The position numbers and the translations under genes were made by a program. From Lutibacter oricola (GTDB lineage: Bacteria > Bacteroidota > Bacteroidia > Flavobacteriales > Flavobacteriaceae): a stretch of 64,000 nt of DNA. The notes under the pieces were generated by a model, which was not told the origin of the DNA, did not search any database, and saw only the letters and a program-made list of their open reading frames with translations. How positions within the stretch are numbered: position 1 is the first letter of the stretch; the number at the start of each line of letters is the position of its first letter. This document shows positions 8,906 through 53,172 of the stretch, piece after piece. Location: NCBI RefSeq assembly GCF_900106565.1, contig NZ_FNNJ01000011.1, positions 62,001 to 126,000 of the forward strand, read 5' to 3'.

Positions 8906-8912
8906 TTTTAAA

Positions 8913-15504: not shown

Positions 15505-15616
15505 TTTACTTGGTTTTTTTGAGTTTTGAAAAGTTCATTTTTTAGAACACTACAAAAATATATCAACTAGCAAGTAAGTGAATGTACAAATGTTTCTGAA
15601 TGTAGAACGAATGTGT

Positions 15617-22809: not shown

Positions 22810-24351
22810 CTACATAGTTAACGCTATTGTAAACGCGTATTCACATGGTTTTTTGGTTGGCATTGTAACTTTTAAACCATCGTTTGTTTGTTCCCATTTT
22901 ATGGTTTCAGTACTACCCAAAACTTTCAAATCTTTTATGTTTAAATCTTTTCCTAGCTCTGAATTTTTAGCTAAAGAGGTAATATTTACAACCCCATTTT
23001 CTGGCCAAGCTAATGTAATTGCATATAGTTTATTTCCTTTTGAAGTAAATCTAATATCCTTAGAAGATAAGTCTTTATTGTTTCCTTCAGAGTGGTGTCC
23101 TTTTTTTACTTCAGTTGGACCTTCACCAAAAGTTTTCCAATATTTAGTGTCGTAAATAGCTTCACCATTTACAGCTAGCCAATCTCCAATTTGCAATAAT
23201 ATTTTTTCTTGCTCTTCAGGTATTGTTCCGTCTGCTTTAGGTCCAACATTTAGTAATAAACATCCATTTTTTGAAACTATATCTACTAAATCATCAACAA
23301 TTTGATTTGCCGTTTTAGATTTCCAATTAGTAACATAACTCCAAGAGTTTTTACCAATAGATGTATCTGTTTGCCAAGGTAATTTTCTAATACCTGGTAG
23401 TTTTCCTCTTTCTAAGTCATAAACTACTGTTCCTTCTGGAAAAGCTTCGTGAGAAAAGTTTTTATCTTGTAGTACAACTTCTTTATTCCACTCTATACCT
23501 TTATTATAATAGTATGCAGCCAATTTAGGTCTCATATCTGCATAATCTGGAATATCTAAATAAAAATCGAACCATAAAATATCTGGTTGATAGTTGTCAA
23601 TTACATCTTTAGTTCTTTCCCACCATCTTTTTTTGAATTCTTCAGAAACAGGTTCAGTTACATCTTTTCCTTTTGAAGAGTATAAATCTGCATATTGAGG
23701 ATCTGTAGTATCGAAATGATCTTTTTTATTGTAGAAAGACCAGTTGAATGCAAAGTGAGACGATGTTCCCATAATCATACCTTTTTTTCTACCAGCTTTA
23801 AATAATTCACCTAAAACATCACGTTTCGGTCCCATATCATAAGCATTCCATCTAGTAGTATTAGATTTATACATAGCAAAGCCATCGTGGTGGTCAGCCA
23901 CAGGAATTACATATTTAGCCCCAGATTTTTTAAATAGGTCAATCCATTCGTTAGCATCAAATTTTTCAGCTTTAAACATTGGAATAAAATCTTTATACCC
24001 AAAATTCTTTTGATCTCCCCAGTTTTTCTTGTGATGTGTATAAACTTCGTTAGGTCCTTTTTTTTGTAATTTTAATTGCGCTGTAAATGTAGCTGTATCC
24101 ATATACATTTTTCTTGGATACCATTCCGATCCAAATGCAGGAACTGAATAAGCTCCCCAGTGAATAAAAATTCCAAATTTGGTTTTATTAAACCAAGCAG
24201 GATCTTTATAATGCTTTTTTATTGATTCCCAATTTGCTTCGTACGTAGGTTGTTGTACTTCAGCTACTTTTTTATCAGCTTTTTTTTCTCCACAAGCAAC
24301 TAATATTGACAGAGCAAAAAAAGCTAATAAATAAAATTTGTTTAACTTCAT
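22810..24351 (-). CDS. GH29 alpha-L-fucosidase/alpha-L-galactosidase-type lipoprotein
   Basis: 513-aa GH29 enzyme. Lipobox SILVAC with Cys20; no acidic run after it, so probably periplasmic. The barrel shows FGIFIHWGAYSVPAFGSEWY (59-78), VADHHDGFAMY with the substrate-contacting His pair, and the nucleophile Asp in DILWFDFYLD (D262). LLLNVGPKADGTIP closes the catalytic domain and a C-terminal beta-sandwich follows (about 400-513). GH29 members cleave alpha-L-fucose, but the porphyran locus of the gut bacterium Bacteroides plebeius uses a GH29 as alpha-L-galactosidase, and L-galactose is the residue expected here. A two-box operator-like element precedes the gene. Confidence 0.92.
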   Translation of the reverse strand: MKLNKFYLLAFFALSILVACGEKKADKKVAEVQQPTYEANWESIKKHYKDPAWFNKTKFGIFIHWGAYSVPAFGSEWYPRKMYMDTATFTAQLKLQKKGPNEVYTHHKKNWGDQKNFGYKDFIPMFKAEKFDANEWIDLFKKSGAKYVIPVADHHDGFAMYKSNTTRWNAYDMGPKRDVLGELFKAGRKKGMIMGTSSHFAFNWSFYNKKDHFDTTDPQYADLYSSKGKDVTEPVSEEFKKRWWERTKDVIDNYQPDILWFDFYLDIPDYADMRPKLAAYYYNKGIEWNKEVVLQDKNFSHEAFPEGTVVYDLERGKLPGIRKLPWQTDTSIGKNSWSYVTNWKSKTANQIVDDLVDIVSKNGCLLLNVGPKADGTIPEEQEKILLQIGDWLAVNGEAIYDTKYWKTFGEGPTEVKKGHHSEGNNKDLSSKDIRFTSKGNKLYAITLAWPENGVVNITSLAKNSELGKDLNIKDLKVLGSTETIKWEQTNDGLKVTMPTKKPCEYAFTIALTM

Positions 24352-24417
24352 AATTAAAACGGTTCTAGTTGATTTTTATAGTTGCTAAATTCGTTCTAAT
24401 AGGTCAATTACATTAAT

Positions 24418-24446
24418 ACATATGATTTTTTAGATATATTAAATGT
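24418..24446 (-). promoter_or_regulatory. Two-box operator-like element before GH29
   Basis: In gene orientation: distal box ACATTTAA, 13-base spacer TATATCTAAAAAA, proximal box TCATATGT, 67-95 bases before the start codon. The spacer matches the susC2 element at 11 of 13 positions. One of four related copies in the PUL. Confidence 0.55.
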
Positions 24447-24490
24447 TTAATTCATTATAAATAGGGATAATATTGAGTTATTTATTTAAA

Positions 24491-26983
24491 TTAATGTGTT
24501 TTGATCTTTAATATTTCAGTTTTACAGTTTTTAGATGTAATTTTTATGTTTACATCTCCAGGTTGCTTTGTACTTTGTATAATTAACAATAGTTTTCCTT
24601 CATCAGTAATACAAGTATCTAAATTAAACTTACTTCTTTGTGCATTGCTGCCATTGTCTACCGTTAATAATTTTGCAGGACCTTCAATTTTAAAAGTAAT
24701 ATTTTGATTTATATGTTGAACAGGAATTCCATTTTTATCTGTTAATTGAACTTCGATATGTGCTACATCGTAACTATTGGCTTTAAGCTCCGTTTTGTCG
24801 GTTTTAATTTTTAATTTAGAAGGAGTTGTAGCTGTTTTAATTTCGTATATTAAATTTTTATCTGCACCAACAACTTTTAATGTTCCTTTAGTATAAGGAA
24901 CAATCCATTTAATAATATGGTCATTGTTTGAAGCTAACTTTTTAACACCAAACGATTTTTCATTAATAAACAATTCTGCAGTAGGAGAGTTTGTGTAAAC
25001 TTCAACAACAATGTTTTCACCTTTATTATAATTCCAATGTGTTTTAAATGGTTGAAATCCCCAGCGTCTTTTTTTCCAAAGATCTTTAGATTTTTCAACA
25101 GCTTTGCCATTTTTATTTATGTATTCTGAGTCTTCTAGTTTTATAGTAGTTGCATAAATTTCGGGAGCATTATTCCAAAGTGTTTTAAACATATGCCAAC
25201 GTGGAGTAGGGAATCCCGCAAAATCGATTAATCCGCTATCACTACCTCTTTCATTAATATCGCTAGTTTCACCCATATAAAAAATACCTGTCCATAAAAA
25301 TATTCCAGGAACATGTGAATTGTCTAAAACAGATTTCCATTCTACCCAATTTGCCCAGTTTTCTGTACCTAAAATCATTTTTTCAGGATAATTTCTATGT
25401 CCATAATCATAAACGGAAGCTCGGTAGCTATACCCAACAATATCCAACGCATCTGTATATCCAGAAAAATGGCTAACCGTTGGAATAACTAGGTTTGCTG
25501 TAACTGGACGCGTAGTGTCAATTTCTTTAACCCATTTAGATAGTTTTTGAGCTGTTTTAGCTAATTCAAATTCTTTTGGAGGATTGTTTTTCATGTTCTC
25601 CTTCATTTGTGCTATTGTAATTGGAGGCTCATCATAATAATATTTTTTGTTTGAATTCCAATAACCGCTCGATTTTCCGTAGCGAGGGTATGTCCATTCA
25701 ACTTCGTTACCAATACTCCACATTACAATTGAAGGGTGATTTCTGTCACGCAACAACATATCTTTTAAATCTTGTTCTCCCCATTTTTGAAAATGATTGG
25801 TATAGCCTTCAGTTAATGGATCTTTACCTTTCGAATTGTAGTTTTTACGTTTGTCTTTTGGATAATCCATTTCATCAAATGTTTCATCCTGAACTAAAAA
25901 ACCAAGTTCATCGCATAATTTTAAAAAGCTTTCTGAAGGAGTATTGTGTGCAGTTCTAATAGCATTTACACCACCTTCTTTTAAAATGTTTAATCTTCTA
26001 CGCCATACATCATCTGGAACAGCAACTCCGATTCCACCAGCATCATGATGTAAACAAACACCTTTAAAATATGTTTTTTCTCCGTTTAAGAAAAAACCAT
26101 CACTTGCAGTGTATTTTAAACTTCTAATACCAAAAGTTTCATCTTTAACATCCCAAACTTTTCCATTTTTATCAATAATAGTAGTTGTTAAAACATATAG
26201 GTTTGGTTTTTCTGTATTCCAAAGTTTTGGGTTTTCAATATTTATTGAAGTTGTAGTGTTTTTAGCTTCAACAATATGCTCTTTTACTATATTGTTTTCT
26301 GCATTTTTAATTTCATATTTAATAGAAAGATTTTCTTTTTGAAGCGGGTTTATAATTTCTGTATCAATATTAATTGTAGCGCTTTCTTTTGAAATTTTTG
26401 GAGTTGTAATACCAATTCCCCATTTTTTAATATGAATTGGTTCTGTAATTACTAATTTTACCTTTCTATAAATTCCAGCTCCATTATACCATCTACCATC
26501 TAAAAAAGCCGTTCTATCTACTTTTACAACTAATGTATTTGTCTTGCCTAAATTAATTTCATTTGTAATTTCAGCACTAAATGGACTAAACCCATAAGGT
26601 CTTTCAGTAATTTTATTTCCATTTAAATAAACTTCCGCATTGTTATAAACACCATCAAAATCTATTCTAATATTTTTTCCTTTAAGGTTTTTTGGTAGTT
26701 TAAACTCTTTTTTGTACCAACCAATATAACTTAAACTAGGAGTAGAGTCTGTTACTTTATATCCTTGGTTGTATGGAGTTTCAATAGCCCAATCATGAGG
26801 AATTTTTACATCTTCCCATTCATTTTGAACTTCTAGATTATTTATGTCTAAAGGAATTTTTGTTTTGAAAAATTTCCAATCAAAATTAAAATCAATTTCT
26901 TGCCTTGGAGGTTTATTTTCTGTTTGAGAATTACAAGAAGATATAACTAAACAGATTACGAATAAATAAGATAAAAAGCGCAT
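24491..26983 (-). CDS. GH2 beta-galactosidase-like lipoprotein
   Basis: GH2 enzyme of 830 aa from the chosen ATG at 26983, which gives MRFLSYLFVICLVISSCNSQ, a clean lipoprotein signal. The longer reading frame starts with GTG at 27016, inside the terminator hairpin of the upstream sulfatase, so it is rejected. Domains: N-terminal jelly roll (PHDWAIETPYNQG), Ig-like, TIM barrel with acid/base in WSIGNEVEW (E427) and nucleophile in LGTENWANW (E541), then C-terminal Ig-like domains. The 114-residue gap between the two catalytic Glu is longer than in the other GH2 of this locus (78), due to an insert around SSGYWNSNKKYYYDEPP. Probably exo-acting on galactan oligosaccharides. Lies 139 bases upstream of GH29 on the same strand. 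Confidence 0.9.
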   Translation of the reverse strand: MRFLSYLFVICLVISSCNSQTENKPPRQEIDFNFDWKFFKTKIPLDINNLEVQNEWEDVKIPHDWAIETPYNQGYKVTDSTPSLSYIGWYKKEFKLPKNLKGKNIRIDFDGVYNNAEVYLNGNKITERPYGFSPFSAEITNEINLGKTNTLVVKVDRTAFLDGRWYNGAGIYRKVKLVITEPIHIKKWGIGITTPKISKESATINIDTEIINPLQKENLSIKYEIKNAENNIVKEHIVEAKNTTTSINIENPKLWNTEKPNLYVLTTTIIDKNGKVWDVKDETFGIRSLKYTASDGFFLNGEKTYFKGVCLHHDAGGIGVAVPDDVWRRRLNILKEGGVNAIRTAHNTPSESFLKLCDELGFLVQDETFDEMDYPKDKRKNYNSKGKDPLTEGYTNHFQKWGEQDLKDMLLRDRNHPSIVMWSIGNEVEWTYPRYGKSSGYWNSNKKYYYDEPPITIAQMKENMKNNPPKEFELAKTAQKLSKWVKEIDTTRPVTANLVIPTVSHFSGYTDALDIVGYSYRASVYDYGHRNYPEKMILGTENWANWVEWKSVLDNSHVPGIFLWTGIFYMGETSDINERGSDSGLIDFAGFPTPRWHMFKTLWNNAPEIYATTIKLEDSEYINKNGKAVEKSKDLWKKRRWGFQPFKTHWNYNKGENIVVEVYTNSPTAELFINEKSFGVKKLASNNDHIIKWIVPYTKGTLKVVGADKNLIYEIKTATTPSKLKIKTDKTELKANSYDVAHIEVQLTDKNGIPVQHINQNITFKIEGPAKLLTVDNGSNAQRSKFNLDTCITDEGKLLLIIQSTKQPGDVNIKITSKNCKTEILKIKTH

Positions 26984-27006
26984 TATATTTTGGTTTGTTT
27001 TATTAA

Positions 27007-27040
27007 AAAACGCCACACTTTTTTATATGTGTGGCGTTTT
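27007..27040 (-). terminator. Terminator after the S1_11-like sulfatase
   Basis: Strong hairpin with 12-base arms AAAACGCCACAC and GTGTGGCGTTTT and a 10-base AT loop, 22 bases after the sulfatase stop on the minus strand. Confidence 0.9.
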
Positions 27041-27061
27041 GAGTTTTATTTTAAATGAAAA

Positions 27062-28741
27062 TTAGTCATTCCAATGTTCATCAATTACTTTTTGAATGTG
27101 TGGAAATTTCTCTCCATCTTCTTCATTAAGTTCTTTACGTTTGGCTACTAATTGTTCTTTTAAGTTTGCAATTATATCCTTATAAGCAGGATCTTTATAG
27201 GCATTGTTCATTTCCTTAGGATCTTTAGTTAAATCGTAAAACTCCCAAGCAGCTGGCGTGTGTAAAGTAAATCTATTACCCCAACTTTTTTTATTCCATT
27301 CAGCACCAGGTTTATCTGTATCTACCCAATATTTTCCGTAGAAGAAAATTAGTTTGTATTCTTTTGTTCTAATTCCAAAATGAGCCGGATTTGCATGTGC
27401 GTGTGCCATATGCATCCAATAACGGTAATATGTAGATTGTTGCCAACCTTCAGGTTCTTGTCCAGTTTCTAGAATATGTTTAAAACTATGACCTTGCATT
27501 TCTTTTGGAGGTGTTCCACCTGCCATTTCAATTAAAGTAGGAGCGAAGTCAGTATTATTAATAATGGCATCTGTTCTTTGTCCAGCTTTAATTTTTTCAG
27601 GGTAACGAACAAAGAAAGGCATTCTTAAAGCTTCTTCATACATCCAACGTTTATCTACATAATCATGCTCACCTAACATAAATCCTTGATCTCCGGTGTA
27701 AACTATAATTGTATTATCGTATAAGTTGTTAGCTTTTAAGTATTCAACCATTCTGGCAACATTATCATCTACACCTTTTACACAACGTAAATAACGTTTT
27801 AAATACTCTTGATAAGTAGCTGAAGTATATTCATCATCAGTCATTTTATCATTTATTTTTGTTGTTGGGTCAAAGTCAGGATCAGAATTACGAACAGATC
27901 TTTTGTTCCAAGTTCTCATACCTTTATGTCTAATAGTATTTCTTTTTGAAACAGATGAGCCTATTACAGATAATAACTCTCCATTTTTACCTCTTGTAGC
28001 AATTGAACCGTTATTTTTATTGTCGTACAAACTTTCTGGCTCAGGAATAAATGTGTCTTCTAAATAATCTTTATATCTTGGAGCGTATTCAAAATCATCG
28101 TGTGGAGCTTTAAATTGGTAGAATAAAGCAAAAGGTTTTGATTTGTCTCTTTTCTTGTCTAACCATTCAATAGATAAATCTGTTACAATATCCGAACTAT
28201 GTCCTTTGTATTGTTTTCCTTCATATGCAGGGTCTTTTTCTTCAGTAAAATGCATTCCTGTTTGTGTCATATAAGGGTCGAAATATGAACCTTGTTGACC
28301 GTGTTTAGTAAATACATTGTAATAATCAAAATTAGGTTCTAGTTTTAAATGCCATTTACCAATCATAGCTGTTTGGTATCCTAATTTTTTCATTTCAATA
28401 GGTAAGTATTGGTGATCCATAGGTAATTCACCTTCTAAATCTAATACTCCATTGGCTTGACTGTGTTGTCCAGATAAAATTGCAGCTCTACTAGGTGTAC
28501 AAATAGAGTTATTTACAAAACAGTTGTCAAAAATAATACCTTCGTTAGCTATTTTGTCTAAAGTAGGAGTAGGGTTTAAACTTGCTAACCTACTTCCGTA
28601 AATACCAAATCCTTGTGTGGTATGATCATCAGACATTATATAAATAATGTTTGGTTGTTTTGGTGTTTCTGGTTTTGCCTTTTCTGAACAGGAAGTTCCA
28701 ATTGCTAATAAAAAGCAAAGAATAAAAATTCTATTTATCAT
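27062..28741 (-). CDS. S1-family sulfatase lipoprotein, S1_11-like
   Basis: 559-aa sulfatase. Lipobox IGTSC with Cys18. Formylglycine motif CTPSR with cysteine at residue 81; IMSDDHTTQGFG metal site, GKWHLK, and YTGDQGFMLGEHDYVDKRW late active-site region, which is typical of the S1_11/iduronate- and glucosamine-6-sulfatase-like branch. A characterised S1_11 from Bacteroides plebeius removes the 6-sulfate of porphyran L-galactose, so the same job is a reasonable hypothesis; assignment is from recall of the pattern, not a search. Own promoter likely: operator-like element 61-91 bases upstream, terminators on both sides, so it forms a monocistronic unit. Confidence 0.9.
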   Translation of the reverse strand: MINRIFILCFLLAIGTSCSEKAKPETPKQPNIIYIMSDDHTTQGFGIYGSRLASLNPTPTLDKIANEGIIFDNCFVNNSICTPSRAAILSGQHSQANGVLDLEGELPMDHQYLPIEMKKLGYQTAMIGKWHLKLEPNFDYYNVFTKHGQQGSYFDPYMTQTGMHFTEEKDPAYEGKQYKGHSSDIVTDLSIEWLDKKRDKSKPFALFYQFKAPHDDFEYAPRYKDYLEDTFIPEPESLYDNKNNGSIATRGKNGELLSVIGSSVSKRNTIRHKGMRTWNKRSVRNSDPDFDPTTKINDKMTDDEYTSATYQEYLKRYLRCVKGVDDNVARMVEYLKANNLYDNTIIVYTGDQGFMLGEHDYVDKRWMYEEALRMPFFVRYPEKIKAGQRTDAIINNTDFAPTLIEMAGGTPPKEMQGHSFKHILETGQEPEGWQQSTYYRYWMHMAHAHANPAHFGIRTKEYKLIFFYGKYWVDTDKPGAEWNKKSWGNRFTLHTPAAWEFYDLTKDPKEMNNAYKDPAYKDIIANLKEQLVAKRKELNEEDGEKFPHIQKVIDEHWND

Positions 28742-28801
28742 TTTAATTTTATTGAAATTTTGAAAGTATAAATATCGCTATTCTTAAACTGAATTATTAG
28801 A

Positions 28802-28832
28802 ACATATGATTTATTTTAGGAAAAAAATATGT
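28802..28832 (-). promoter_or_regulatory. Two-box operator-like element before the S1_11-like sulfatase
   Basis: In gene orientation: ACATATTT, 15-base spacer containing CCTAAAAT, TCATATGT; the proximal box begins 61 bases from the start codon. Spacer is two bases longer than in the other three copies. Confidence 0.5.
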
Positions 28833-28870
28833 TATTAATACTTAGTATAGTATAAAACAAATACATATTT

Positions 28871-28906
28871 AATAAAAAAGAGCTTGCAAATATTTACAAG
28901 CCCTTT
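28871..28906 (-). terminator. Terminator after the T9SS protein
   Basis: On the minus strand GCTTGTAAA pairs with TTTGCAAGC and is followed by TTTTTTATT. Located 26 bases beyond the stop of the T9SS-exported protein. Confidence 0.8.
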
Positions 28907-28931
28907 AATTATTTATTTAGTGGAAATAATA

Positions 28932-30134
28932 TTATTCCTTTATAAATTTAGATAATCTTCCGGTATCAGTTTTTAAAAAGTATAGACCTTTTGATAGATT
29001 TGAAACATTCATATTAACTGGATTGTTAAAAGTTTTTACTTCTTTACCTGTAACATCATAAATATGCACTGTTTTAATGTCTTTATCTCTATTTTCTATT
29101 GAAATAAATTCAGAAGTTGGGTTTGGGTACACAGCTATTTTTTTAGCCCCGTAATTTTTAATTCCTAATGTTGCGCTAGGATGGAAAACAATTTTGTCTA
29201 TAGTAAAATTTCCAGCAGCAGTGTTATTGTTATTGATTCGAGGGCGTAAGGACATGTTAGTTATATTTCCTGTCCACGCATTACTACCTCCTTGAGATAA
29301 ATCTATACTTCCTGATTGTGTAATTGTAGTACTTGTAAGTCCAGTAAGTTTGTTATAAAAACCATTACTACTTGTATAAAATCCAAATTGTTCATTTGTA
29401 GATGCATTTTTATAAAATATTGTAACATAAGCGTTAGCTGTTGCATCTATATATTTGTAAGTACCTCCTAAATCAATATGTACTCCGGAACCTTTTTCTG
29501 CTGTTGTTGTAATAGTTAATTGATTTGTTGTTATTGAATGAGTAGCATTAGTTTCGTTGGTTATTGTGTAACCTTCATCAAAATTTATTTCAGTAATTTC
29601 AGTTAGAACAGGATCAGCAACCGCTGTCATAGTTTCAGCAGGTATAATTGAGTTACTGTTTGTATCTACATTTCCAGAAGTAGTATTTACTAGTCTTACT
29701 AAAATATCATATTCATTACCTATAACATAAGAGCCTCCAGTACCGCTGCCTCCAGTATTTTCAACCAAAGCTGAAAATGTATATGTTCTTTTAATAGTAC
29801 TTGCATTTGTACCTGCAGCTTCTACAAAGGTATAAAAAGAGCCTTGAGTAGAATTTGTTGCATCAATGTTAAAAGAGGTTTGCAATAATTTGTTAGCATT
29901 AGAAGTCGAGCCTGTATTAAATACTCTAATATTAGCCGTTATTGTTGTGTTATCGTCGGGGATATTGTCGATTGAAATAACAAGGGCATCAGATGAAGGA
30001 ATAGTTGAGGATGAAGCTATAATTTCATTAGAGAAATTTTCAAAAGTAACAGTTGGTGCTTGCGAATAAATAATTGTTGTTAAACTTGTAAAAAACAAGG
30101 TTAAGAATTTTTTTTTAAGTAATTTTTTAATCAT
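28932..30134 (-). CDS. T9SS-exported PUL protein of unknown function
   Basis: 400-aa protein not recognised as any named family. Signal peptide ends near IIYSQ (residue 25). Residues about 26-165 are a Ser/Thr/Asn-rich beta domain (VTFENFSNEI, ISIDNIPDDNTTITANIRVFNTG). Residues about 185-325 look like a beta-sandwich carbohydrate-binding-type domain (EINFDEGYTI, GSGVHIDLGGTYKYIDATAN, AGNFTIDKIVFHP). The last ~70 residues (KKIAVYPNPTSEF... LSKGLYFLKTD) are a T9SS sorting domain. So it is exported to or beyond the cell surface. It has no catalytic motif I can see. It is a single-gene unit with its own operator-like element and flanking terminators within the susC2 side of the PUL, suggesting a dedicated role such as substrate binding. 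Confidence 0.75.
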   Translation of the reverse strand: MIKKLLKKKFLTLFFTSLTTIIYSQAPTVTFENFSNEIIASSSTIPSSDALVISIDNIPDDNTTITANIRVFNTGSTSNANKLLQTSFNIDATNSTQGSFYTFVEAAGTNASTIKRTYTFSALVENTGGSGTGGSYVIGNEYDILVRLVNTTSGNVDTNSNSIIPAETMTAVADPVLTEITEINFDEGYTITNETNATHSITTNQLTITTTAEKGSGVHIDLGGTYKYIDATANAYVTIFYKNASTNEQFGFYTSSNGFYNKLTGLTSTTITQSGSIDLSQGGSNAWTGNITNMSLRPRINNNNTAAGNFTIDKIVFHPSATLGIKNYGAKKIAVYPNPTSEFISIENRDKDIKTVHIYDVTGKEVKTFNNPVNMNVSNLSKGLYFLKTDTGRLSKFIKE

Positions 30135-30193
30135 AATGTTTAAGTTTTTATTAGATATATCAAAATTACCAAGTTTAAGAATTACTGTGTTGT

Positions 30194-30222
30194 TTATATG
30201 TGTTTTAGCTTATAACATATGT
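30194..30222 (-). promoter_or_regulatory. Two-box operator-like element before the T9SS protein
   Basis: In gene orientation: ACATATGT, spacer TATAAGCTAAAAC, ACATATAA; boxes 21 bases apart, proximal box 60 bases from the start codon. A TAATTTTG sequence (30161-30168, minus strand), resembling the Bacteroidota -7 promoter box, lies between it and the gene. Confidence 0.55.
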
Positions 30223-30229
30223 TTAAAAA

Positions 30230-30261
30230 AAAAGCCTACTTAATAATTTAAGTAGGCTTTT
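30230..30261 (-). terminator. Terminator of the susC2-susD2-SGBP operon
   Basis: Perfect 13-base arms AAAAGCCTACTTA and TAAGTAGGCTTTT around a 6-base loop, 19 bases after the binding-protein stop; an A/T run follows on the minus strand. Confidence 0.9.
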
Positions 30262-30279
30262 AAAGTTTTATAAAATTAA

Positions 30280-32283
30280 TTATGGTCTTGCATCATTTTT
30301 GAAAATTCTGAAGTCATCATAATAAACTACAAAATCAACACCTGATGTAGGAATAGGTTGTAATCTTAAATTTTTACCCATTGAATCTGCAGTTGGTGTA
30401 ACTTCAACTTTAACTAACTCCCAAGTATCTACAGCTGGACTTGCTCCCCATTTTGGTGCAACACTTTTACTTAGATCGTACCAGATTTTATCTGCGGCAG
30501 TACTGCTTATATCTGATCCAGAAGTTATATACCTTCTATAAGTAATTAGATATGTAACACCAGCTTCGTAATTTAAAACCCCATTAGAAGTTTCTAACCT
30601 TGGTTTAGAATCTTCTAACTTAGCACTTTGTGAACCATCATAAGCTTGTTCAGTACTAAACTCAACTACTGCTCCTGAACCACTAGCACCTTCAACCCAA
30701 ACATCTCCAAAAGTACCTTCAAAAGAACTATCTACAATCATGTTTCCTTCAAACATTGTTACAGGTACATTTGTGTAAGGTGTTATTGCTCCATCTCCTA
30801 AACCATAAATAGAACCTGTACCATCGTTAGAAATAGTTATAACATCCGTTCTATAAATTTGCTCAGCCATTGTAATGTTTAACATTTTAGGGTCAGTAGC
30901 ATCTAAACTTACAGATGCAACAGCAAAAGGAGTTCCGTTTACTAGTACTTCAAAACCAGTAATTGGGTCTGTAAATGAATTTGAGTCTAATTCTGTATCA
31001 AAACCAATTTTAATTGTTTGGTCTTCTAACTCTATAGCATCACCTTGTTGTTCAACAGGTGTTGGTACATATACTTCTACAGGTATATTATCGAAAGCTT
31101 CTAATAAACGTTCGTCAAAAGACCAAAGAGCTGCGTTTGTACCATCATAAGAAACAGTTATTGTTTTTGAAGCATCGGCAGGTACTAATGGAGTTTCTAA
31201 CGTAATTATTAATTTTGTTCCATTAGAGTTTCTATTAACGGATTCTATTGCACTTGCAACACCATCAATTTCAACAACAAAATTACCTGAAACATTTTCA
31301 GTGTAAGTTTGAATTTTATGACTTAAACTTACCATAATTTCATCTGCATTAGATTCTATTATGTCTCCAACTTGAGTTAAAGGAACATCTAAAGGTAAAA
31401 CCGTAAACACAGTAGGTATATCATAAATATCTGTACTTAGTTTTAATCTTTCAGTTCTTTCTCTTGTAGCTTTTAATTCTACTTGGTAGTCTCCAATTTC
31501 ATCAAAAGTAATAGTATCAATAACTCTATCTAATAATTCTACTCTTGTTAAAGTTTTATTATAGATGTTTTTTTGATTTGTTGAATCAACTTCTGTAGTA
31601 TGCACGCGCCATTTAGTTGTTTCTGGTCGACCAATATTATCTGGTTGTAAACCACTTAAATCTTCAAAAATTAATTTATCTCCAAAAGTTAAAGTAACAG
31701 CATCAACATTTTTATGATCTAAAATAGTCTCATCCATATATCTAACTTGTGGCACAGCAACTACAGTATCATAAACGTCAATTATAAATGTATAGTCTGC
31801 AACCCACTTGTCACCAACTTTTACTGTTCTAATAGTGTCATTTACTGTATCTCCATCCACATAGTCATTTGGAAAAATAAATGATGTTGAATCTAAAAAG
31901 GTACCATAGTATTTTACTTTACTAAGTGAATCTCCTTTTTTCCATAAAACATGAATTGTTTGATCTGTTGAAATATAAGTTCCAGGATTAACAATATACT
32001 CATCGTGATTATCTAAGTTATTAGGTACTGGACCTTCTAAAAAGAATGCATTTTCCGATGGTATAGTCCAATATCTTTCTTGAGCACCTGCAGAAAGATC
32101 CATAAAAGAATAGTATCTATTAACTTCAGATACTTTATCAGTAGACGCACCAGTAGTAAATGTGAAAGATAAATCTGAAAATGATGGAGGCGTGTCATAA
32201 TCATCATCATCACAACCAACCATTATTAAGGCTAGTAATGATAATGAAAAAATTGTTTTAATTATATATTTTAGTTTCTTCAT
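30280..32283 (-). CDS. Surface glycan-binding lipoprotein (SusE/F position)
   Basis: 667-aa lipoprotein from the ATG at 32283, which gives MKKLKYIIKT...LIMVGCDDDD; an ATG eight codons upstream is possible but adds a second lysine patch. The Asp run after the lipid cysteine is a surface-export signal. Middle part (about 60-510) is built of Ig/PKD-like domains, including two related segments (IMVSLSHKIQ...KTITVSYDG and IKIGFDTELDS...DVITISNDG). The C-terminal ~150 residues (DSSFEGTFGDVWVEGAS ... YYDDFRIF) look like a CBM4/9/22-type jelly roll. Third gene after susC2-susD2, the usual place for a SusE/F-type binding protein. Ligand expected to be the target galactan. Confidence 0.82.
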   Translation of the reverse strand: MKKLKYIIKTIFSLSLLALIMVGCDDDDYDTPPSFSDLSFTFTTGASTDKVSEVNRYYSFMDLSAGAQERYWTIPSENAFFLEGPVPNNLDNHDEYIVNPGTYISTDQTIHVLWKKGDSLSKVKYYGTFLDSTSFIFPNDYVDGDTVNDTIRTVKVGDKWVADYTFIIDVYDTVVAVPQVRYMDETILDHKNVDAVTLTFGDKLIFEDLSGLQPDNIGRPETTKWRVHTTEVDSTNQKNIYNKTLTRVELLDRVIDTITFDEIGDYQVELKATRERTERLKLSTDIYDIPTVFTVLPLDVPLTQVGDIIESNADEIMVSLSHKIQTYTENVSGNFVVEIDGVASAIESVNRNSNGTKLIITLETPLVPADASKTITVSYDGTNAALWSFDERLLEAFDNIPVEVYVPTPVEQQGDAIELEDQTIKIGFDTELDSNSFTDPITGFEVLVNGTPFAVASVSLDATDPKMLNITMAEQIYRTDVITISNDGTGSIYGLGDGAITPYTNVPVTMFEGNMIVDSSFEGTFGDVWVEGASGSGAVVEFSTEQAYDGSQSAKLEDSKPRLETSNGVLNYEAGVTYLITYRRYITSGSDISSTAADKIWYDLSKSVAPKWGASPAVDTWELVKVEVTPTADSMGKNLRLQPIPTSGVDFVVYYDDFRIFKNDARP

Positions 32284-32306
32284 AATTATATATTTTAGTT
32301 TAAACA

Positions 32307-32326
32307 TTAAGAGTAAATACTCTTAA
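32307..32326 (-). promoter_or_regulatory. Perfect inverted repeat between susD2 and the binding protein
   Basis: Arms TTAAGAGTA and TACTCTTAA around a two-base AA centre, 24-43 bases before the chosen start of the binding-protein gene and just after the susD2 stop. As RNA it would form a tight hairpin without a T-run, so it could protect the 3' end of susCD mRNA or lower downstream expression; as DNA it could be an operator. Confidence 0.45.
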
Positions 32327-32335
32327 ACTTTAAAT

Positions 32336-34273
32336 TTATTGATTCCAGTTTAAGTTAGAGTTTAACTCATCTTGAGGAACAGGAAGGTATGCATGTATAT
32401 CTTCAATAAAGTTTTTAGAACCTGTTAAAGCATCTCTTAAATGTGGTTCTTTAGCTCTTCTGTTTCCATTAATAAAATGCGCTTCAGGAGTTGATTTAAC
32501 TTGTCTAAATGCGTAATCTGGAAGATTAGGATCATCATATGTAGGTAAAACACCTGTAGGCATAATAAAACATCTCCATCTTGTTGGGTTTTTACCCATA
32601 CGGTTATTTCTAAAGTGCCAAGAATCGTATTCGAAAGTAGATAAGTTTTCTAGTTGTTGTTTCCAAACACCCCAACGTCTTAGGTCATAAGCTCTATCAC
32701 CTTCTAAAGATAATTCTAAAGGTTTTTCTGTAAACCTTAAGTGGTTTTCTAAGTTTTCTAAAGTTACAGATTGTTCACCATTAGATGGATCCATATCAAT
32801 ATCATCCATATATGTTGTTGTACTACCAACAAATTCGGCACTAGTTTCTGTAGACTTTCCTAATAAAATAAGACCAGAACGTTTTCTAATACGGTTTATA
32901 TATCTTAAAGCTTCAGATAAATCACCTTTTTCAATCATACATTCTGCATATAAAAGGTAAATTTCTCCTAAACGCATAATTGGTATGTTAATATCTGATC
33001 TGTTGTCTTTGTCAGCACTTTCGTCTTCACCTAAACCTCCATTTTCAGTATTCCAACCTGTAAACTTTTTGATAAAATTAGGAGTTTGTCTTCCGTGAGT
33101 AGCAGCAGATTTTTCTGTACCATATTCAGCATTTTCAACACCATACATTCTACCATCTCTATCATCTACAGATGTCATTGAGTTATTCATACGTAAACTG
33201 TACATTCTAACAACATTTTCTTGAATACTGTCTAAATTTCCAGAAGTATCATAAATATTTCTATTAACTAAGTTAATAGGGTTTAAAGGGTCTGGTTTTT
33301 CAGCTCTATATTTAAGAGTTAACCAAGAAGAAAATTGAACTTGATTACCATCATTTAATTGATGTGAAATTTGTTGAGATAATTTTTGTTCGTCTAGCCC
33401 TAAAGGGTTAGCATCATAAGAATAGTTAATTTCAAAAATAGATTCATTATTAAATTCAGCAATACCAGTAAAACATTTAGCTAAATCATCTGCAAGTTCA
33501 TAACCATAATTATCAATTACATTTTTAAGGTAAATTTCAGCATTAACAAAATCATTCTCATTAATATAAGTTTTAGCAATAAGTCCTTCACAGAAACCAC
33601 CAGTAATTCTACCTAAGTTTCCATTTCCAGCTTCACTTTGCCAAGCGTTATAGGTACCAGGTAAATTTTCTTTACCATATTCTAAATCAGCTAAATAAAA
33701 TGCTTTTACATCTTCAGAAGTTGAAAAGCTTTTTTGAAAATCTGCTATTTCAACAGGAACAGTTTCAAATATAGGTAAAGAACCTTTATTAAATGAATTG
33801 TGTAAAACATAGTAGAAATAACCTCTTAGCGCTCTTGCTTGAGCAAGAATATAAATACCAGATTGTTCAGCATCAGCACCGTTAAAAGTATCTTCTAATC
33901 TGTAGTAAGCATCAATAACTTGATTTGCTCTAAAAATACCTTTAAAACAAGCATTCCACTTGTTTTGAACTTCATTGGTTGTTAAATCAAATGTTTGGTC
34001 ATAAATGGCAGTTCCAGTAGATTTATTTCTAAATACTGAAGGAACAGCAATATCAGTACGATTGTACTCCCATTTAATTCCTAAAATATTTTCATCTCTT
34101 AAAGAAGCATAGGTAGCATTTAATCCTCCGTTTAAATCACCTGCATTTTGCCAAAATGTATCAAGTGTTAAAGCATTTGGATTTACTTGGTCTAACTCAT
34201 CTACACAAGCTTGAAATGATAAAGCAAGCACTATTAGAGGAAGTAATCCTTTCAAAAATGTCTTATGTGTCAT
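32336..34273 (-). CDS. SusD-like glycan-binding lipoprotein (pair 2)
   Basis: 645-aa RagB/SusD protein from the ATG at 34273 (signal MTHKTFLKGLLPLIV...FQACVDELDQ); an in-frame ATG at 34312 adds 13 residues and is nearer to the susC2 stop, so the start is uncertain. Lipid cysteine followed by acidic residues indicates surface exposure. SusD hallmarks: LAQARALRGYFYYVLHNSFNKGSLPIF, then IMRLGEIYLLYAECMIEKGDLSEAL and EKPLELSLEGDRAYDLRRWG. Larger than SusD1 because of extra loops (for example 420-530), consistent with a different oligosaccharide. Forms the SusCD2 complex. Confidence 0.94.
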   Translation of the reverse strand: MTHKTFLKGLLPLIVLALSFQACVDELDQVNPNALTLDTFWQNAGDLNGGLNATYASLRDENILGIKWEYNRTDIAVPSVFRNKSTGTAIYDQTFDLTTNEVQNKWNACFKGIFRANQVIDAYYRLEDTFNGADAEQSGIYILAQARALRGYFYYVLHNSFNKGSLPIFETVPVEIADFQKSFSTSEDVKAFYLADLEYGKENLPGTYNAWQSEAGNGNLGRITGGFCEGLIAKTYINENDFVNAEIYLKNVIDNYGYELADDLAKCFTGIAEFNNESIFEINYSYDANPLGLDEQKLSQQISHQLNDGNQVQFSSWLTLKYRAEKPDPLNPINLVNRNIYDTSGNLDSIQENVVRMYSLRMNNSMTSVDDRDGRMYGVENAEYGTEKSAATHGRQTPNFIKKFTGWNTENGGLGEDESADKDNRSDINIPIMRLGEIYLLYAECMIEKGDLSEALRYINRIRKRSGLILLGKSTETSAEFVGSTTTYMDDIDMDPSNGEQSVTLENLENHLRFTEKPLELSLEGDRAYDLRRWGVWKQQLENLSTFEYDSWHFRNNRMGKNPTRWRCFIMPTGVLPTYDDPNLPDYAFRQVKSTPEAHFINGNRRAKEPHLRDALTGSKNFIEDIHAYLPVPQDELNSNLNWNQ

Positions 34274-34328
34274 TAATTTATATTTTGTTGTTTTTTTATG
34301 TATATTTTTCATCTTCAGTTAGTTTAAA

Positions 34329-37300
34329 TTAAAATTGAAGTTGTATACCTGCTTTAACTTGAGAAGATATTGGATATCTTCCTTGGTCAATACCACGAGT
34401 ACTTAATCCGTTACCACCTACTTCAGGGTCAAATCCAGTATAATCTGTAATAGTTAATAAATTTTGAGCTTGAATGTAAATTCTTAATTTACTTAGGCCT
34501 AATTTTTCGCTAGAAGTTTTAGGTAATGTGTATCCTAAAGATACGTTTCTTAACCTAACAAAATCTCCATTTTCTAAGAAATAATCTGATGCACCTCTAT
34601 AAGATCTTGTTCCATTTCCATCATACCAAGGTATGTCTGAATTTTGGTTGTGTTCTGTCCAAGAATAGAATAAGTCTTTATGTACACCAGCTTGGTATGC
34701 ATATGCTTTACTACCATTCATAATTTCAGCTCCAAAAGATCCATACCATTGCATAGAAAAATCGAAGTCTTTGTAATTTGCTGAAATATTAATACCAGTT
34801 TCAAAATCTGGAGAACCGCTACCTTGATAAATTCTATCACCATCATCTATAGCTCCATTTCCAGCATCAGCAATACCATCACCATCAGTATCTTCAGTTA
34901 ACTGATCTACATACATTAATTCACCCATTTTTGCACTTGGGTCAATATTTTGGTATGCAATTAACTGTTCTTCAGTTTTAATAACACCTGCAGTTTCTCT
35001 TAAAAAATATGCAGCAGCCTCATAACCTTCAGTAATAACAGTTACAATTTCTTTAGAACCTTTTGTAGAAAGGTATCCGTTATCTAAATAGATAATTGGG
35101 TTGTTTTCAGCTGTTTTAGTAACCTCATTTTCATTTTTAGTAAAGGTACCTGCAATAGACCATCTAAAGTCTTTATTAACTTTATGTCTGTAGTTGAAAC
35201 CTAATTCCATACCCTTGTTTTCCATATTTCCAACATTAAATACTGTGCTACGGTAAGAACCAGAAACACCTGTTGATGGAGGGTTTACAATTTGGTATAA
35301 TAAATCTTCCTTTTCATTTTTATAAAAATCGGCAGAAAAAGTTAATTTATTTTTGAACAATCCTAAATCAAACCCAATATTTTGCTCAATATTAGTTTCC
35401 CATTTTAAGTCTGCATTTGCAAATTCTTGTTGAATGGTACCTAAGGCTCCAGTTTCAGACCCTGCATTGTTAAGGTCGTCAGAAGCACTATTGCTACCAA
35501 ATACGTAGTCAACACCTGGTTCTACTACAGATTGGTTACTGTATGGGTTAAATCTATCATTACCTGTAGTACCGTAACTAGCTCTAATTTTTAATGAATT
35601 TATTACATCTTTTACAGGCTCCCAGAAAGTTTCATCAGAAACATTCCATCCAACAGAAACTGAAGGGAATAATCCCCATCGGTTATCTTTTCCAAACTGA
35701 GAAGAACCATCGTAACGTGCACTTGCACTTAATAAGTACTTACCATCATAATTGTATTGAATTCTAGCTAAGTTACCTATTAACGTTTTTGTGAAATCAT
35801 AACCTCCTGATTCGATATCCCATAGTAATTCGTAATTATCTAAAACAGTAATTGCTGGGTTTAAGTTGTTTCTAACTTCTAAGCTGTAGCGTTCTTGTTT
35901 AGATTCTTCAAAAGATGTCATTACTAAAGCATTTATAGTATGCAATCCAAATGTTTTGTTATAGTTTGCAAATACCTCAGATGTAAATTTTTGAGAAGTT
36001 ATATCTGTAATAGTTTGTGATGTAATATTTGCAGGATTTGTAATTAAATCACCTTCCGTATTATAAATATCATATCTAGGTATTTTCTTCACCCATTTTT
36101 TATCATCATATTGTATACCAAATCTACCAGTAAGTCTTAGATCATCGTTAACATCAAAATCAAGAGATATATTACCAGCATGGCTATTTCCAGCTCTTTC
36201 ATCAGTTGTTTTAATTGTTCTTAAAGAATTTGCAAGACTTCTTGCTTCGTTTAACTTCCAGTCATTAGTTGGATCATCTGTACTAATTTCAGAAATGTTT
36301 TCAAGAACATTATCATCTAAGTTAATTGCAGGCTTAAATGCTTGATATTCATAAATTCTATTCATCATACCAGTCCAAGGTTTTAACTGGTCATCTCTTT
36401 TAAAAGTTAATGCAGTTTTTATTTTCCATTTACCTTTTACAAACATTGTATTTGCACGTACATTAAATCTTTTATAATCTGAGTTGTAAAAAGATCCTTC
36501 TTGTTGAAAGTAGTTAGCATTAAAGTTATATGTTAAACCTTCTTTACCACCAGTTATATTAATACGGTGATTTTGAATAGGAGCGTTGTCATTTAATAAA
36601 ACATCACCAATATTAGTGTTGTTAGTAAAATAACTAGCATTTCTAGTAATGTCAGATTCTACACCACCTTGAGGTTTGTCAGTATTTATAGCTCCTCTTA
36701 GCATATGAAGGTAAGTATATTCTTCTTTACTCATTTGATCAAAGTCTGAAGTAATTCGTTGAATACCATATTCAGATTCAACAGAAATTTTCATTTGACC
36801 AACTTTACCTTGCTTAGTTGTAATTAAAATTACACCACCAGCACCACGAGTACCATAAATAGAAGCAGATGCCGCATCTTTTAGTACGTCAATACTTTCA
36901 ATTTCGCTAATACTTAATTGAGGATCAGAATCAAAAGGAATACCATCAACAACATATAACGGACCACTTTGCCCATCCATAAGAGAACTAAAACCACGAA
37001 TTAAAATGTTTGCTTCTTCTCCAGGAGCACCTGAACTAGAGGCAACGTTTACACCGGCTATTTGTCCTTGTAAGGCTGTACCAATATCAGAAGTTGTTGT
37101 TTTTTGTAAATCTTCAGATTTTACCTTTACAACAGCTCCGGTAACTTCTTTTTTTCTTTGAGTACCATAACCAACAACAACTACTTCTTCTAAAGCAGCA
37201 ACATCAGATTTAAGTACAACATTAATAGTGGTTCTACCACCAATTTTAATTTCTTGCGCAGCAAAACCAATATAACTGAATACTAATACATCGGTAGATT

Positions 37301-37514
37301 TAGCTTTAACTTCATAATTACCATCAAAATCAGTAGAAGCCCCTTTGGCGGTTCCTTTAACTAAGATACCAACACCTGGTAAAGGCATTCCGTCTCCGGT
37401 AACATTACCCTTTACGGTAACTGTTTGCGCTTGTAATGAACTAAGACCAATTAATAACGCAATGGTTAAAAAACTAGTCTTGAGTTTCCAATTAACAAGT
37501 AAATTGAATTTCAT
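34329..37514 (-). CDS. SusC-like TonB-dependent transporter (pair 2)
   Basis: About 1061-aa outer-membrane porter. Start taken at the ATG at 37514 (MKFNLLVNWKLKTSFLTIAL, cleavage after SLQAQ); an upstream ATG at 37544 adds ten polar residues. Carboxypeptidase-D-like domain (VKGNVTGDGMPLPGVGILVKG), EEVVVVGYGTQRKKEVTGA TonB-box region, plug, and barrel ending SQVKAGIQLQF. Works with SusD2 to import large oligosaccharides. First gene of the susC2-susD2-SGBP operon and carries the best-conserved copy of the two-box operator element upstream. Confidence 0.95.
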   Translation of the reverse strand: MKFNLLVNWKLKTSFLTIALLIGLSSLQAQTVTVKGNVTGDGMPLPGVGILVKGTAKGASTDFDGNYEVKAKSTDVLVFSYIGFAAQEIKIGGRTTINVVLKSDVAALEEVVVVGYGTQRKKEVTGAVVKVKSEDLQKTTTSDIGTALQGQIAGVNVASSSGAPGEEANILIRGFSSLMDGQSGPLYVVDGIPFDSDPQLSISEIESIDVLKDAASASIYGTRGAGGVILITTKQGKVGQMKISVESEYGIQRITSDFDQMSKEEYTYLHMLRGAINTDKPQGGVESDITRNASYFTNNTNIGDVLLNDNAPIQNHRINITGGKEGLTYNFNANYFQQEGSFYNSDYKRFNVRANTMFVKGKWKIKTALTFKRDDQLKPWTGMMNRIYEYQAFKPAINLDDNVLENISEISTDDPTNDWKLNEARSLANSLRTIKTTDERAGNSHAGNISLDFDVNDDLRLTGRFGIQYDDKKWVKKIPRYDIYNTEGDLITNPANITSQTITDITSQKFTSEVFANYNKTFGLHTINALVMTSFEESKQERYSLEVRNNLNPAITVLDNYELLWDIESGGYDFTKTLIGNLARIQYNYDGKYLLSASARYDGSSQFGKDNRWGLFPSVSVGWNVSDETFWEPVKDVINSLKIRASYGTTGNDRFNPYSNQSVVEPGVDYVFGSNSASDDLNNAGSETGALGTIQQEFANADLKWETNIEQNIGFDLGLFKNKLTFSADFYKNEKEDLLYQIVNPPSTGVSGSYRSTVFNVGNMENKGMELGFNYRHKVNKDFRWSIAGTFTKNENEVTKTAENNPIIYLDNGYLSTKGSKEIVTVITEGYEAAAYFLRETAGVIKTEEQLIAYQNIDPSAKMGELMYVDQLTEDTDGDGIADAGNGAIDDGDRIYQGSGSPDFETGINISANYKDFDFSMQWYGSFGAEIMNGSKAYAYQAGVHKDLFYSWTEHNQNSDIPWYDGNGTRSYRGASDYFLENGDFVRLRNVSLGYTLPKTSSEKLGLSKLRIYIQAQNLLTITDYTGFDPEVGGNGLSTRGIDQGRYPISSQVKAGIQLQF

Positions 37515-37544
37515 ATTATTTTGTTTTAAGTTTAGATGATACAA

Positions 37545-37958
37545 ATGTTAAATTTATTTAACATTTAAAGGATAACATATGTTTTTATAGATATTACATA
37601 TGTGCTAAACAAGTTAAAGTCCTTGTATTTGTTGGGGTTACGGGTTTTATTAGAATTTGCTTTGTTAAATATGAAATATGTTAGCAAAGTGGGACGAAGT
37701 CTTTTTTTTATTGAATTTTTTTAAAAAAAATTTAAATAATATATATGTAAGTTAAACTAAGTAGTTGTTTTTTTCGATTACAAACAGTAAAAGTTCGTGT
37801 GCGCAAACGTGTTGTAATTGTTATATTAATAACAATGTCTTGTATCAACTCTAAATTTCTACCACTTTTTCAATTAAAATTGATGTATTTTTGCTGTTTG
37901 AATTTAAAATGAATACAAATTCTTTTAAATAATATATTTCAATATAAGCATATTAATT
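37545..37958. other. Intergenic boundary of the PUL, divergent promoters
   Basis: 414 bases between the divergent susC2 and the nuclease-like gene. Besides the susC2 operator element I see only AT-rich tracts (37706-37750) and no RNA gene or repeat. It marks the right-hand edge of the PUL. Confidence 0.5.
37575..37603 (-). promoter_or_regulatory. Two-box operator-like element before susC2
   Basis: Two identical 8-base palindromes ACATATGT at 37575-37582 and 37596-37603, 21 bases (two helical turns) apart, with spacer AATATCTATAAAA in gene orientation; proximal box 61 bases from the chosen susC2 start. Best copy of a four-member set in the PUL. Confidence 0.65.
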
Positions 37959-52977: not shown

Positions 52978-53172
52978 ATGAAAAAACGCCATCAACAAAA
53001 ATTAATAACCTTATCATTTTTACTACTTTGTTTGTTTAATATTCCATTTATTTTATTATTCGAAAGTAGTTATACTATTATGGGGTTTCCTTTAATGTAT
53101 TTTTACATTTTTGTTGTTTGGATCCTGTCTATTGTTGTTTCCTATATTATTTTAAAACGTTTTTATGAGTAG
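52978..53172 (+). CDS. Small membrane protein preceding the SSS-type kinase
   Basis: 64-aa protein with two predicted TM helices (about 10-29 and 36-58: FLLLCLFNIPFILLFESSY, MYFYIFVVWILSIVVSYII). It overlaps the histidine kinase by 8 bases, which supports translational coupling. This size and position resemble the small accessory subunit of SSS transporters, here for the SSS-kinase. Function not proven. Confidence 0.75.
   Translation: MKKRHQQKLITLSFLLLCLFNIPFILLFESSYTIMGFPLMYFYIFVVWILSIVVSYIILKRFYE

Follow-up and report, generated by a model that had tools for sequence, protein, structure and literature searches.

In Bacteroides thetaiotaomicron, operator motifs have been predicted for 16 of the 36 hybrid two-component systems (HTCSs) (Ravcheev et al. 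2013, PMC3878776). All are direct repeats whose distance averages 21 bp, and the part of that study that deals with these motifs interprets them in terms of dimers spaced by two turns of the helix. Flavobacterial σA promoters, according to the portion of PMC9723704 used here, carry TAnnTTTG at -12 to -5. We describe a predicted two-box operator in a stretch of 64,000 nucleotides of Lutibacter oricola; this stretch, hereafter the window, represents positions 62,001 to 126,000 of contig NZ_FNNJ01000011.1 (C29) in a genome of 4.1 Mb (G000). The operator is real and most probably that of an HTCS; it is clear at four transcription units of the window, marginal at a fifth, and present at further places in the genome. 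We put at about 0.8 the probability that the boxes are an HTCS operator at the position of a class-II activator and serve a dispersed sulfated-galactan regulon, a reading supported in the sequence by the repeat itself, its spacing, the register of a -7 element, conservation, and co-occurrence with one HTCS clade.

The motif is a repeat of (A/T)CAT(A/T)TG(A/T) at 21 bp, and a -7 element, TTTG, begins 29 nt past the proximal box. The sites predicted in the window, and the -7 elements that go with them, are as follows (T9SS, type IX secretion system; the composite score is defined below).

37575..37603, minus strand: predicted susC2-susD2 operator, distal box 37596-37603, proximal box 37575-37582, a perfect ACATATGT-N13-ACATATGT
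37542..37545, minus strand: -7 element TTTG of the susC2 promoter, 29 nt past the proximal box
30194..30222, minus strand: predicted operator of the T9SS-tail gene, distal box 30215-30222, proximal box 30194-30201, a 21-bp pair, composite score 23.2
30161..30164, minus strand: -7 element TTTG of the T9SS-tail gene
24418..24446, minus strand: predicted GH29 operator, distal box 24439-24446, proximal box 24418-24425, a 21-bp pair, composite score 22.6
24385..24388, minus strand: -7 element TTAG of the GH29 promoter
15586..15614, minus strand: fifth predicted operator, before the GH2 gene that precedes GH86, composite score 22.4, fit 15 of 16
15553..15556, minus strand: -7 element TTTG of the GH2 promoter
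28802..28830, minus strand: weak predicted sulfatase operator, read at 21 bp, composite score 16.2, fit 13 of 16
28769..28772, minus strand: -7 element TTTA of the sulfatase promoter

An earlier note on this DNA had reported paired boxes before susC2, the T9SS-tail gene, the sulfatase gene, and the GH29 gene. All four sets of coordinates read as it claimed, the agreement between the GH29 and susC2 spacers at 11 of 13 positions was confirmed, and the proximal box ends 59-66 nt ahead of the ATG at all four sites. The 21-base spacing it described holds for susC2, T9SS, and GH29, but the sulfatase site is weak, with a poor distal box (28823-28830, ATATTTTT; proximal box 28802-28809, TCATATGT). The 23-base spacing proposed for this site finds no backing, as spacing 23 was seen in just one of 284 upstream regions (described below); read at 21 bp, the site lies at a distance of 60 from the ATG and has TTTA in register. 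The note had also overlooked the GH2 site (distal box 15607-15614, ACATTCGT; proximal box 15586-15593, ACATTTGT), which its own pattern finds with three mismatches, and was right that susC1, the PfkB/kdgK-like gene, and the DNA directly upstream of GH86 carry no site; GH86 may be covered as part of a putative operon that starts with the GH2 gene ahead of it. With up to three mismatches, ACATATGT-N13-ACATATGT occurs four times in the window against 0.81 expected (a count of four was reached in 2 of 100 shuffles); one of these four matches falls within GH86 and another is the GH2 site.

The -7 element keeps a fixed distance to the boxes in other genomes as well. TTTG begins 29 nt past the proximal box in nine of ten promoters of SusC homologs that carry the pair (the tenth has TTGT), and five GH29 promoters show TTTG (two) or TTAG (three, including that of the window) at the same offset. 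Among sites from genomes that had not contributed to our sequence model, 12 of 16 have TTTG at offset 29, as compared to three for all other offsets combined; this test drew on 29 loci, of which we kept the 16 with a gene start at most 130 bp from an intergenic site; all 16 come from genomes with the HTCS clade, and the 13 loci dropped include all six from genomes without it. Because the model stops four bases past the proximal box, the TTTG register is not a product of the model. Given TAnnTTTG at -12 to -5, the boxes would therefore span approximately -45 to -38 and -66 to -59. The published place of the -7 element would thus put the centre of the proximal half-site near -41.5, the position of a class-II activator, and that of the distal half-site near -62.5.

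Spacing and orientation were assessed in 284 upstream regions of 21 loci, a set that includes the window's own contig and counts divergent intergenic regions once per flanking gene. With spacing 21, 35 of these regions contain a pair scoring at least 12 of 14, as compared to 0-10 regions for every other spacing from 10 to 40. The 13 loci of HTCS orthologs in other genomes gave 16 of 124 regions at spacing 21 versus 0-6 at other spacings, and none of 356 upstream regions in 44 loci of distant HTCSs contained such a pair at 21 bp. Twelve of 53 sites from other genomes have two asymmetric boxes (CATTTG or CAAATG), and all 12 pairs point in the same direction (opposite, 0); one of these sites is counted on both strands and eight were selected by the model. 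The flanks of the alignment columns likewise fit a direct repeat better than an inverted one (7.8 vs. 10.5). A direct repeat suits a putative dimer of AraC-type domains better than a dyad-binding protein. A SusR-like site was rejected, as it needs direct repeats 67 or 77 bp apart and the spacing here is 21 (spacings were scanned up to 44).

Comparison of orthologous loci, suggested earlier as a check, shows that the pair is kept in relatives. Among 30 SusC homologs, the ten nearest SusC2 (48-100% identity, SusC2 itself included) all have a 21-bp pair scoring at least 11, whereas the other 20 reach at most 10; the distance from pair end to ATG is 55-61 nt in eight of these ten promoters, 74 nt in one, and 157 nt in one. 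With a cut-off of 12, spacing 21 was found before seven of the 30 homologs and each other spacing from 9 to 44 before none to two. Four GH29 orthologs (genomes G072, G001, G036, and G084) also have pairs at the same register.

A matrix built from 37 sites of other genomes was used to scan 336 kb of sequence from the L. oricola genome. The susC2 site ranked first (24.7), followed by C29:51769 (24.2), three places on contig C15 (21.7, 20.6, and 20.4), and GH29 (19.9); further down were T9SS (16.7), GH2 (15.8), and the sulfatase site (13.2), with control scores of 15.7, 15.5, and 12.8 for the reversed sequence. When the -7 element was added to the matrix, with weights that we chose after the offset-29 test, the resulting composite placed susC2 at 31.3 on contig C29, ahead of the four scores listed above. 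The best eight places on this contig are intergenic, the two that follow (15.0 and 14.6) fall within open reading frames (ORFs), and the reversed control did not exceed 8.6. Seven of the best eight (31.3 to 16.2) have a gene start 55-85 nt away, one of these genes being a doubtful ORF of 119 amino acids, and the eighth (C29:3008) has no gene start on that strand. Genes of the window without a site reach a composite fit of 9-12 of 16, as compared to 13 for the sulfatase site and 15 for the GH2 site. Judged by their composite scores relative to the reversed control and to the ORF-internal matches, four of the sites (susC2, T9SS, GH29, and GH2) are clear and that of the sulfatase is marginal. To the left of the window, operator-like pairs were also seen at C29:45996-46024 (L018:3996-4024) and C29:51769-51797 (L018:9769-9797), the latter a full composite before a sulfatase gene.

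In the whole genome, a sequence-only model built solely from other genomes gave 88 matches at E ≤ 10, with susC2 first (E = 0.001), GH29 16th (E = 0.15), and T9SS 18th (E = 0.32), while the sulfatase site was only partly matched. We examined 27 of these places (30 loci were fetched, three of them second-strand repeats); the top eight are intergenic, as are 16 of the 27 overall, and the genes behind the intergenic matches include sulfatases, GH16, GH2, GH29, GH88, and a beta-helix protein. Across 14 gene-site combinations, the full composite fits at 15 or 16 of 16 in six, at 13 in four, and at 11 or 12 in four; because window genes without a site already reach 9-12, only the first six are firm. 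The intergenic matches at C16:676337, C54:324161, and C54:322564 fail the full composite and are not claimed, and C15:150815, a match of the first matrix, lies inside an ORF and was treated as chance.

The regulator gene lies outside the window: of the 40 window ORFs of at least 120 amino acids, 36 were scanned and none encodes an HTCS, and searching the genome for the Y_Y_Y domain gave none on the window's contig. The candidate is an HTCS of 1422 amino acids at C15:163796-168061 (L028:3796-8064), a single chain in which propeller sensor, Y_Y_Y, HisKA, HATPase, receiver, and AraC-type helix-turn-helix domains were all found. Among the solved chains closest to it are HTCS sensors and a receiver/DNA-binding fragment. 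Directly after this gene are three boxes at 21-bp steps, and beyond them genes for sulfatases, a LacZ-type GH2, a GH97, and a second GH86 that also has porphyranase domains. In four genomes (G002, G072, G001, and G036), susC2 lies next to the gene of an HTCS that shares 50-59% identity with the C15 HTCS, and in three others (G134, G084, and G011) one lies 40-70 kb off on the contig of susC2. An HTCS of at least 51% identity is present in all ten genomes that carry the SusC2 pair, as compared to one of six genomes with an unpaired SusC homolog. At the cut-off used, 27 of 397 Flavobacteriaceae genomes carry the clade. Matches of the model at E ≤ 0.05 numbered 106 in the 16 clade genomes outside training (at least two in each of the 16) and eight, in six genomes, among 20 genomes without the clade (rank test p ~ 1e-7, a statistic that ignores phylogeny); 50 of 100 distinct match places are within 50 kb of an HTCS of the clade, against 3.7 expected. 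The earlier suggestion of one regulator, possibly with the AraC-type domain of an HTCS binding boxes two helical turns apart, is thus favoured by the direct repeats, by the published HTCS motifs, by the way in which the motif tracks one HTCS clade, and by the orthologs beside susC2 in four genomes. A CATTTG/CATATG pair was also seen at C51:590723-590751 (L197:14723-14751), 63 bp before a glycosidase-like gene that lies downstream of a distant HTCS, C51a, which is approximately 40% identical and has a quite different recognition helix.

Several results weigh against an HTCS operator or narrow it. Single boxes in the window are at chance level (49 vs. 45), and the bare pair pattern with up to three mismatches is not enriched in the genome (54 vs. 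50 for the reversed pattern). The pattern alone is little proof, and the case rests on spacing, position, and comparison. Eleven of the 27 places examined genome-wide are inside ORFs. At the laxer cut-off of 11, spacing 19 yields 10 of the 30 SusC homologs, equal to spacing 21, even though at cut-off 12 it yields one against seven. By its pair score alone the GH2 site (15.8) hardly differs from the control (15.7), and it is missing from the 88 genome-wide matches; the sulfatase site is near background, scoring 13.2 without the -7 element against controls of 15.7 and 15.5. The GH16 site of this genome (C54:311917), which is outside the 53-site set, has oppositely oriented boxes. Five of nine SusC2 neighbourhoods in other genomes contain no HTCS inside the 40 kb read, and G061 has an HTCS (58%) together with an unpaired SusC homolog. 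The comparison of clade and non-clade genomes is uncorrected for phylogeny, five of its 16 tested genomes share genera with training, and its 20 controls are smaller on average. That the pairs arise by chance in AT-rich intergenic DNA, as the counts of single boxes and of the bare pattern would allow, is nevertheless very improbable, since spacing, position, -7 register, conservation, and co-occurrence all oppose it; chance is refuted for susC2, T9SS, and GH29, and the sulfatase site is less secure.

If the boxes are an HTCS operator, we infer binding, activation, start sites, operons, ligand, and the choice between two paralogous HTCSs. An HTCS joins, in one protein, a sensor kinase of the membrane and a response regulator whose DNA-binding domain is of the AraC type; its sensor would meet a putative galactan oligosaccharide, and the kinase would phosphorylate its own receiver. 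Two AraC-type domains would then bind adjacently on the same DNA face, each to one of the half-sites spaced 21 bp, and with half-sites near -41.5 and -62.5 the dimer would abut RNA polymerase in the manner of a class-II activator. The C15 HTCS is the most likely regulator; from a distance of at least approximately 129 kb, it would act in trans on as many as five window units, together with other sulfatase and GH16 units of the genome.

The paralogous HTCS on contig C54 is 62% identical to the C15 HTCS, and their DNA-binding pieces are 82% identical. Beside its gene (C54:109001-129000, L145), the promoters of a GH29 gene, a T9SS-tail gene, and a SusC gene have pairs of CAATYG or CGATTG boxes, spaced 21 bp and located 56-68 bp upstream of the ATG; the CATATG pair is absent from all three. 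The first recognition helix reads SRSTF in the C54 HTCS and SRSNL in the C15 HTCS. A similar promoter, with the boxes CAATAG and CGATTG, was seen for another Lutibacter HTCS whose helix reads SRSTF (L035); among 30 loci of the clade, SRSTF was found only in the C54 gene, leaving L035 as the sole other instance seen. Exceptions to the match of helix and box are G001a, which has SRSTL with CATTTG/CATATG-type pairs, and L081, which has SRSNL with one CGATTG-type pair. Because it is seen in two genomes and has exceptions, a switch to CAATYG half-sites through the SRSTF helix is only a suggestion. A CAATTG pair 59 bp before the C15 unit with the second GH86 porphyranase (C15:176952-176980, L028:16952-16980) indicates that this unit may be cross-wired, answering to the C54-type HTCS. 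In a wider reading, to which we give slightly less than even odds, the HTCS clade would act in trans as the master activator of scattered sulfated-galactan loci throughout the Flavobacteriaceae, through promoters that follow a rigid, readable grammar (box, 21 bp, box, 29 nt, TTTG). The duplicated SRSTF sister HTCS of this genome would, in the same reading, have moved to CAATYG half-sites with the spacing unchanged and so divided the regulon, with some cross-wired promoters left (e.g., that of the C15 porphyranase unit).

It is unlikely that the pairs of the window are bound by the C54 HTCS, instead of or besides the C15 HTCS: this protein belongs to the same clade and genome, its DNA-binding domain is close, and its promoters keep the 21-bp spacing, but those three promoters carry CAATYG/CGATTG boxes, its first recognition helix differs, and it is the C15 HTCS that directly precedes CATATG-type boxes. 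The C15 HTCS gene is also adjoined by a gene for a LacI-family repressor, an ortholog of which (at least 65% identity) is present in 19 of 25 genomes with the HTCS versus two of 20 without it, and the boxes could be the operator of this repressor. We regard this as highly doubtful, since six genomes with HTCS and motif (G001, G011, G129, G227, G334, and G377) have no LacI above 47%, two genomes with LacI at 72 and 70% (G006 and G014) have zero model matches, and LacI near SusC2 was seen in G036 only; moreover, LacI sites are dyads, whereas asymmetric box pairs among the 53 sites are direct repeats.

Regulators of two other types were considered. The consensus of the Crp-like global regulator BT4338, wwwTATGTTnTAnAACATAwww, holds TATGTT and AACATA, the halves of AACATATGTT, in the part of PMC11501099 that gives it. 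A regulator of this type has little chance of being the one that binds the boxes, as this consensus is a compact 22-bp dyad while the susC2 site, compared by eye, is a whole palindromic box repeated at 21 bp, and a global regulator is not expected to track one HTCS clade. The nearest regulator in the locus, a LuxR-type TPR protein encoded just left of the window (L018:17765-19336), deserves almost no credence as the binding protein, as a homolog at E 1e-60 is present in two of 45 genomes (G002 and G248), as compared to HTCS and motif in 25 of the 45.

The window locus looks made for a sulfated red-algal galactan: it encodes a GH86 enzyme with porphyranase domains, a GH29, two GH2, a GH43 with CBM6, several sulfatases, and two SusC/SusD pairs. 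The genes discussed here, assigned by Pfam except the GH2 at 24491..27016, are listed below.

34329..37514, minus strand: susC2, TonB-dependent receptor, start at 37514 set from the ATG and orthologs
32336..34312, minus strand: susD2
30280..32307, minus strand: protein after susD2, weak SWM repeat match
28932..30134, minus strand: secreted protein with T9SS sorting tail
27062..28741, minus strand: sulfatase
24491..27016, minus strand: GH2 enzyme, 45-bp gap to the sulfatase gene
22810..24351, minus strand: GH29, alpha-L-fucosidase family
13033..15504, minus strand: GH2 enzyme, first gene of the fifth unit
10258..12891, minus strand: GH86 with porphyranase domains and T9SS tail, own site absent
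7391..10256, minus strand: GH43-CBM6 and sulfatase genes, own sites absent

In other genomes, eight of the nine SusC2 neighbourhoods have a homolog of the protein at 30280..32307 after susD. The T9SS-tail protein at 28932..30134 is cargo and not a component of the secretion machine. The GH2 gene at 24491..27016 probably belongs to the sulfatase unit, to judge from the 45-bp gap. GH86 is probably transcribed by read-through from the promoter of the GH2 gene at 13033..15504 across a gap of 141 bp, and the genes at 7391..10256 probably close the same unit. The window also encodes, at 53165-55819, a histidine kinase with a sodium:solute-symporter-like membrane part, adjoining a gene for an SSF symporter and another whose two halves resemble acetyl-CoA synthetase.

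Since HTCS direct repeats averaging 21 bp have already been predicted in Bacteroides, the architecture described here is not new. In the literature searched, which mostly excludes subscription papers, no HTCS operator for marine flavobacteria or algal-polysaccharide degraders was recognised, and this particular switch seems not to have been described previously. If true, the genes that answer to the regulator, including units distant from any regulator gene, could be predicted from sequence, and the presence of two HTCS paralogs and two half-site types in one genome would allow a direct test of the residues that set HTCS DNA specificity.

Among known sites, those of BT4338 share AT-richness and the words TATGTT/AACATA with the boxes but differ as a compact 22-bp dyad (in the part of PMC11501099 considered), and SusR-like sites of Bacteroides are likewise direct repeats before polysaccharide genes but with the wider distance of 67 or 77 bp (as given in the motif part of PMC3878776). 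In the Zobellia galactanivorans carrageenan regulon, as in the present case, a marine flavobacterium uses a red-algal galactan through genes in several loci, induced there, with a DNA-binding type of the AraC family (CgrA); CgrA, however, is described as an AraC-family activator and not an HTCS, and no operator was found for it in the portion of PMC5698469 on which we draw. The closest likeness is to the HTCS operators of B. thetaiotaomicron as presented in the relevant part of PMC3878776. The operator described here differs from them in that it belongs to another bacterial class, its half-site is different (in a comparison not made letter by letter), its candidate regulator is encoded in another locus, and it has a fixed -7 register, which is not seen in that part of PMC3878776. 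Both consist of a two-site direct repeat of approximately 21 bp upstream of susC-type or glycosidase units, both have a cognate HTCS with an AraC-type domain (here, the candidate), and some of the B. thetaiotaomicron regulons reach distant operons, as proposed here; the promoter register and the dispersed trans-acting regulon merit testing.

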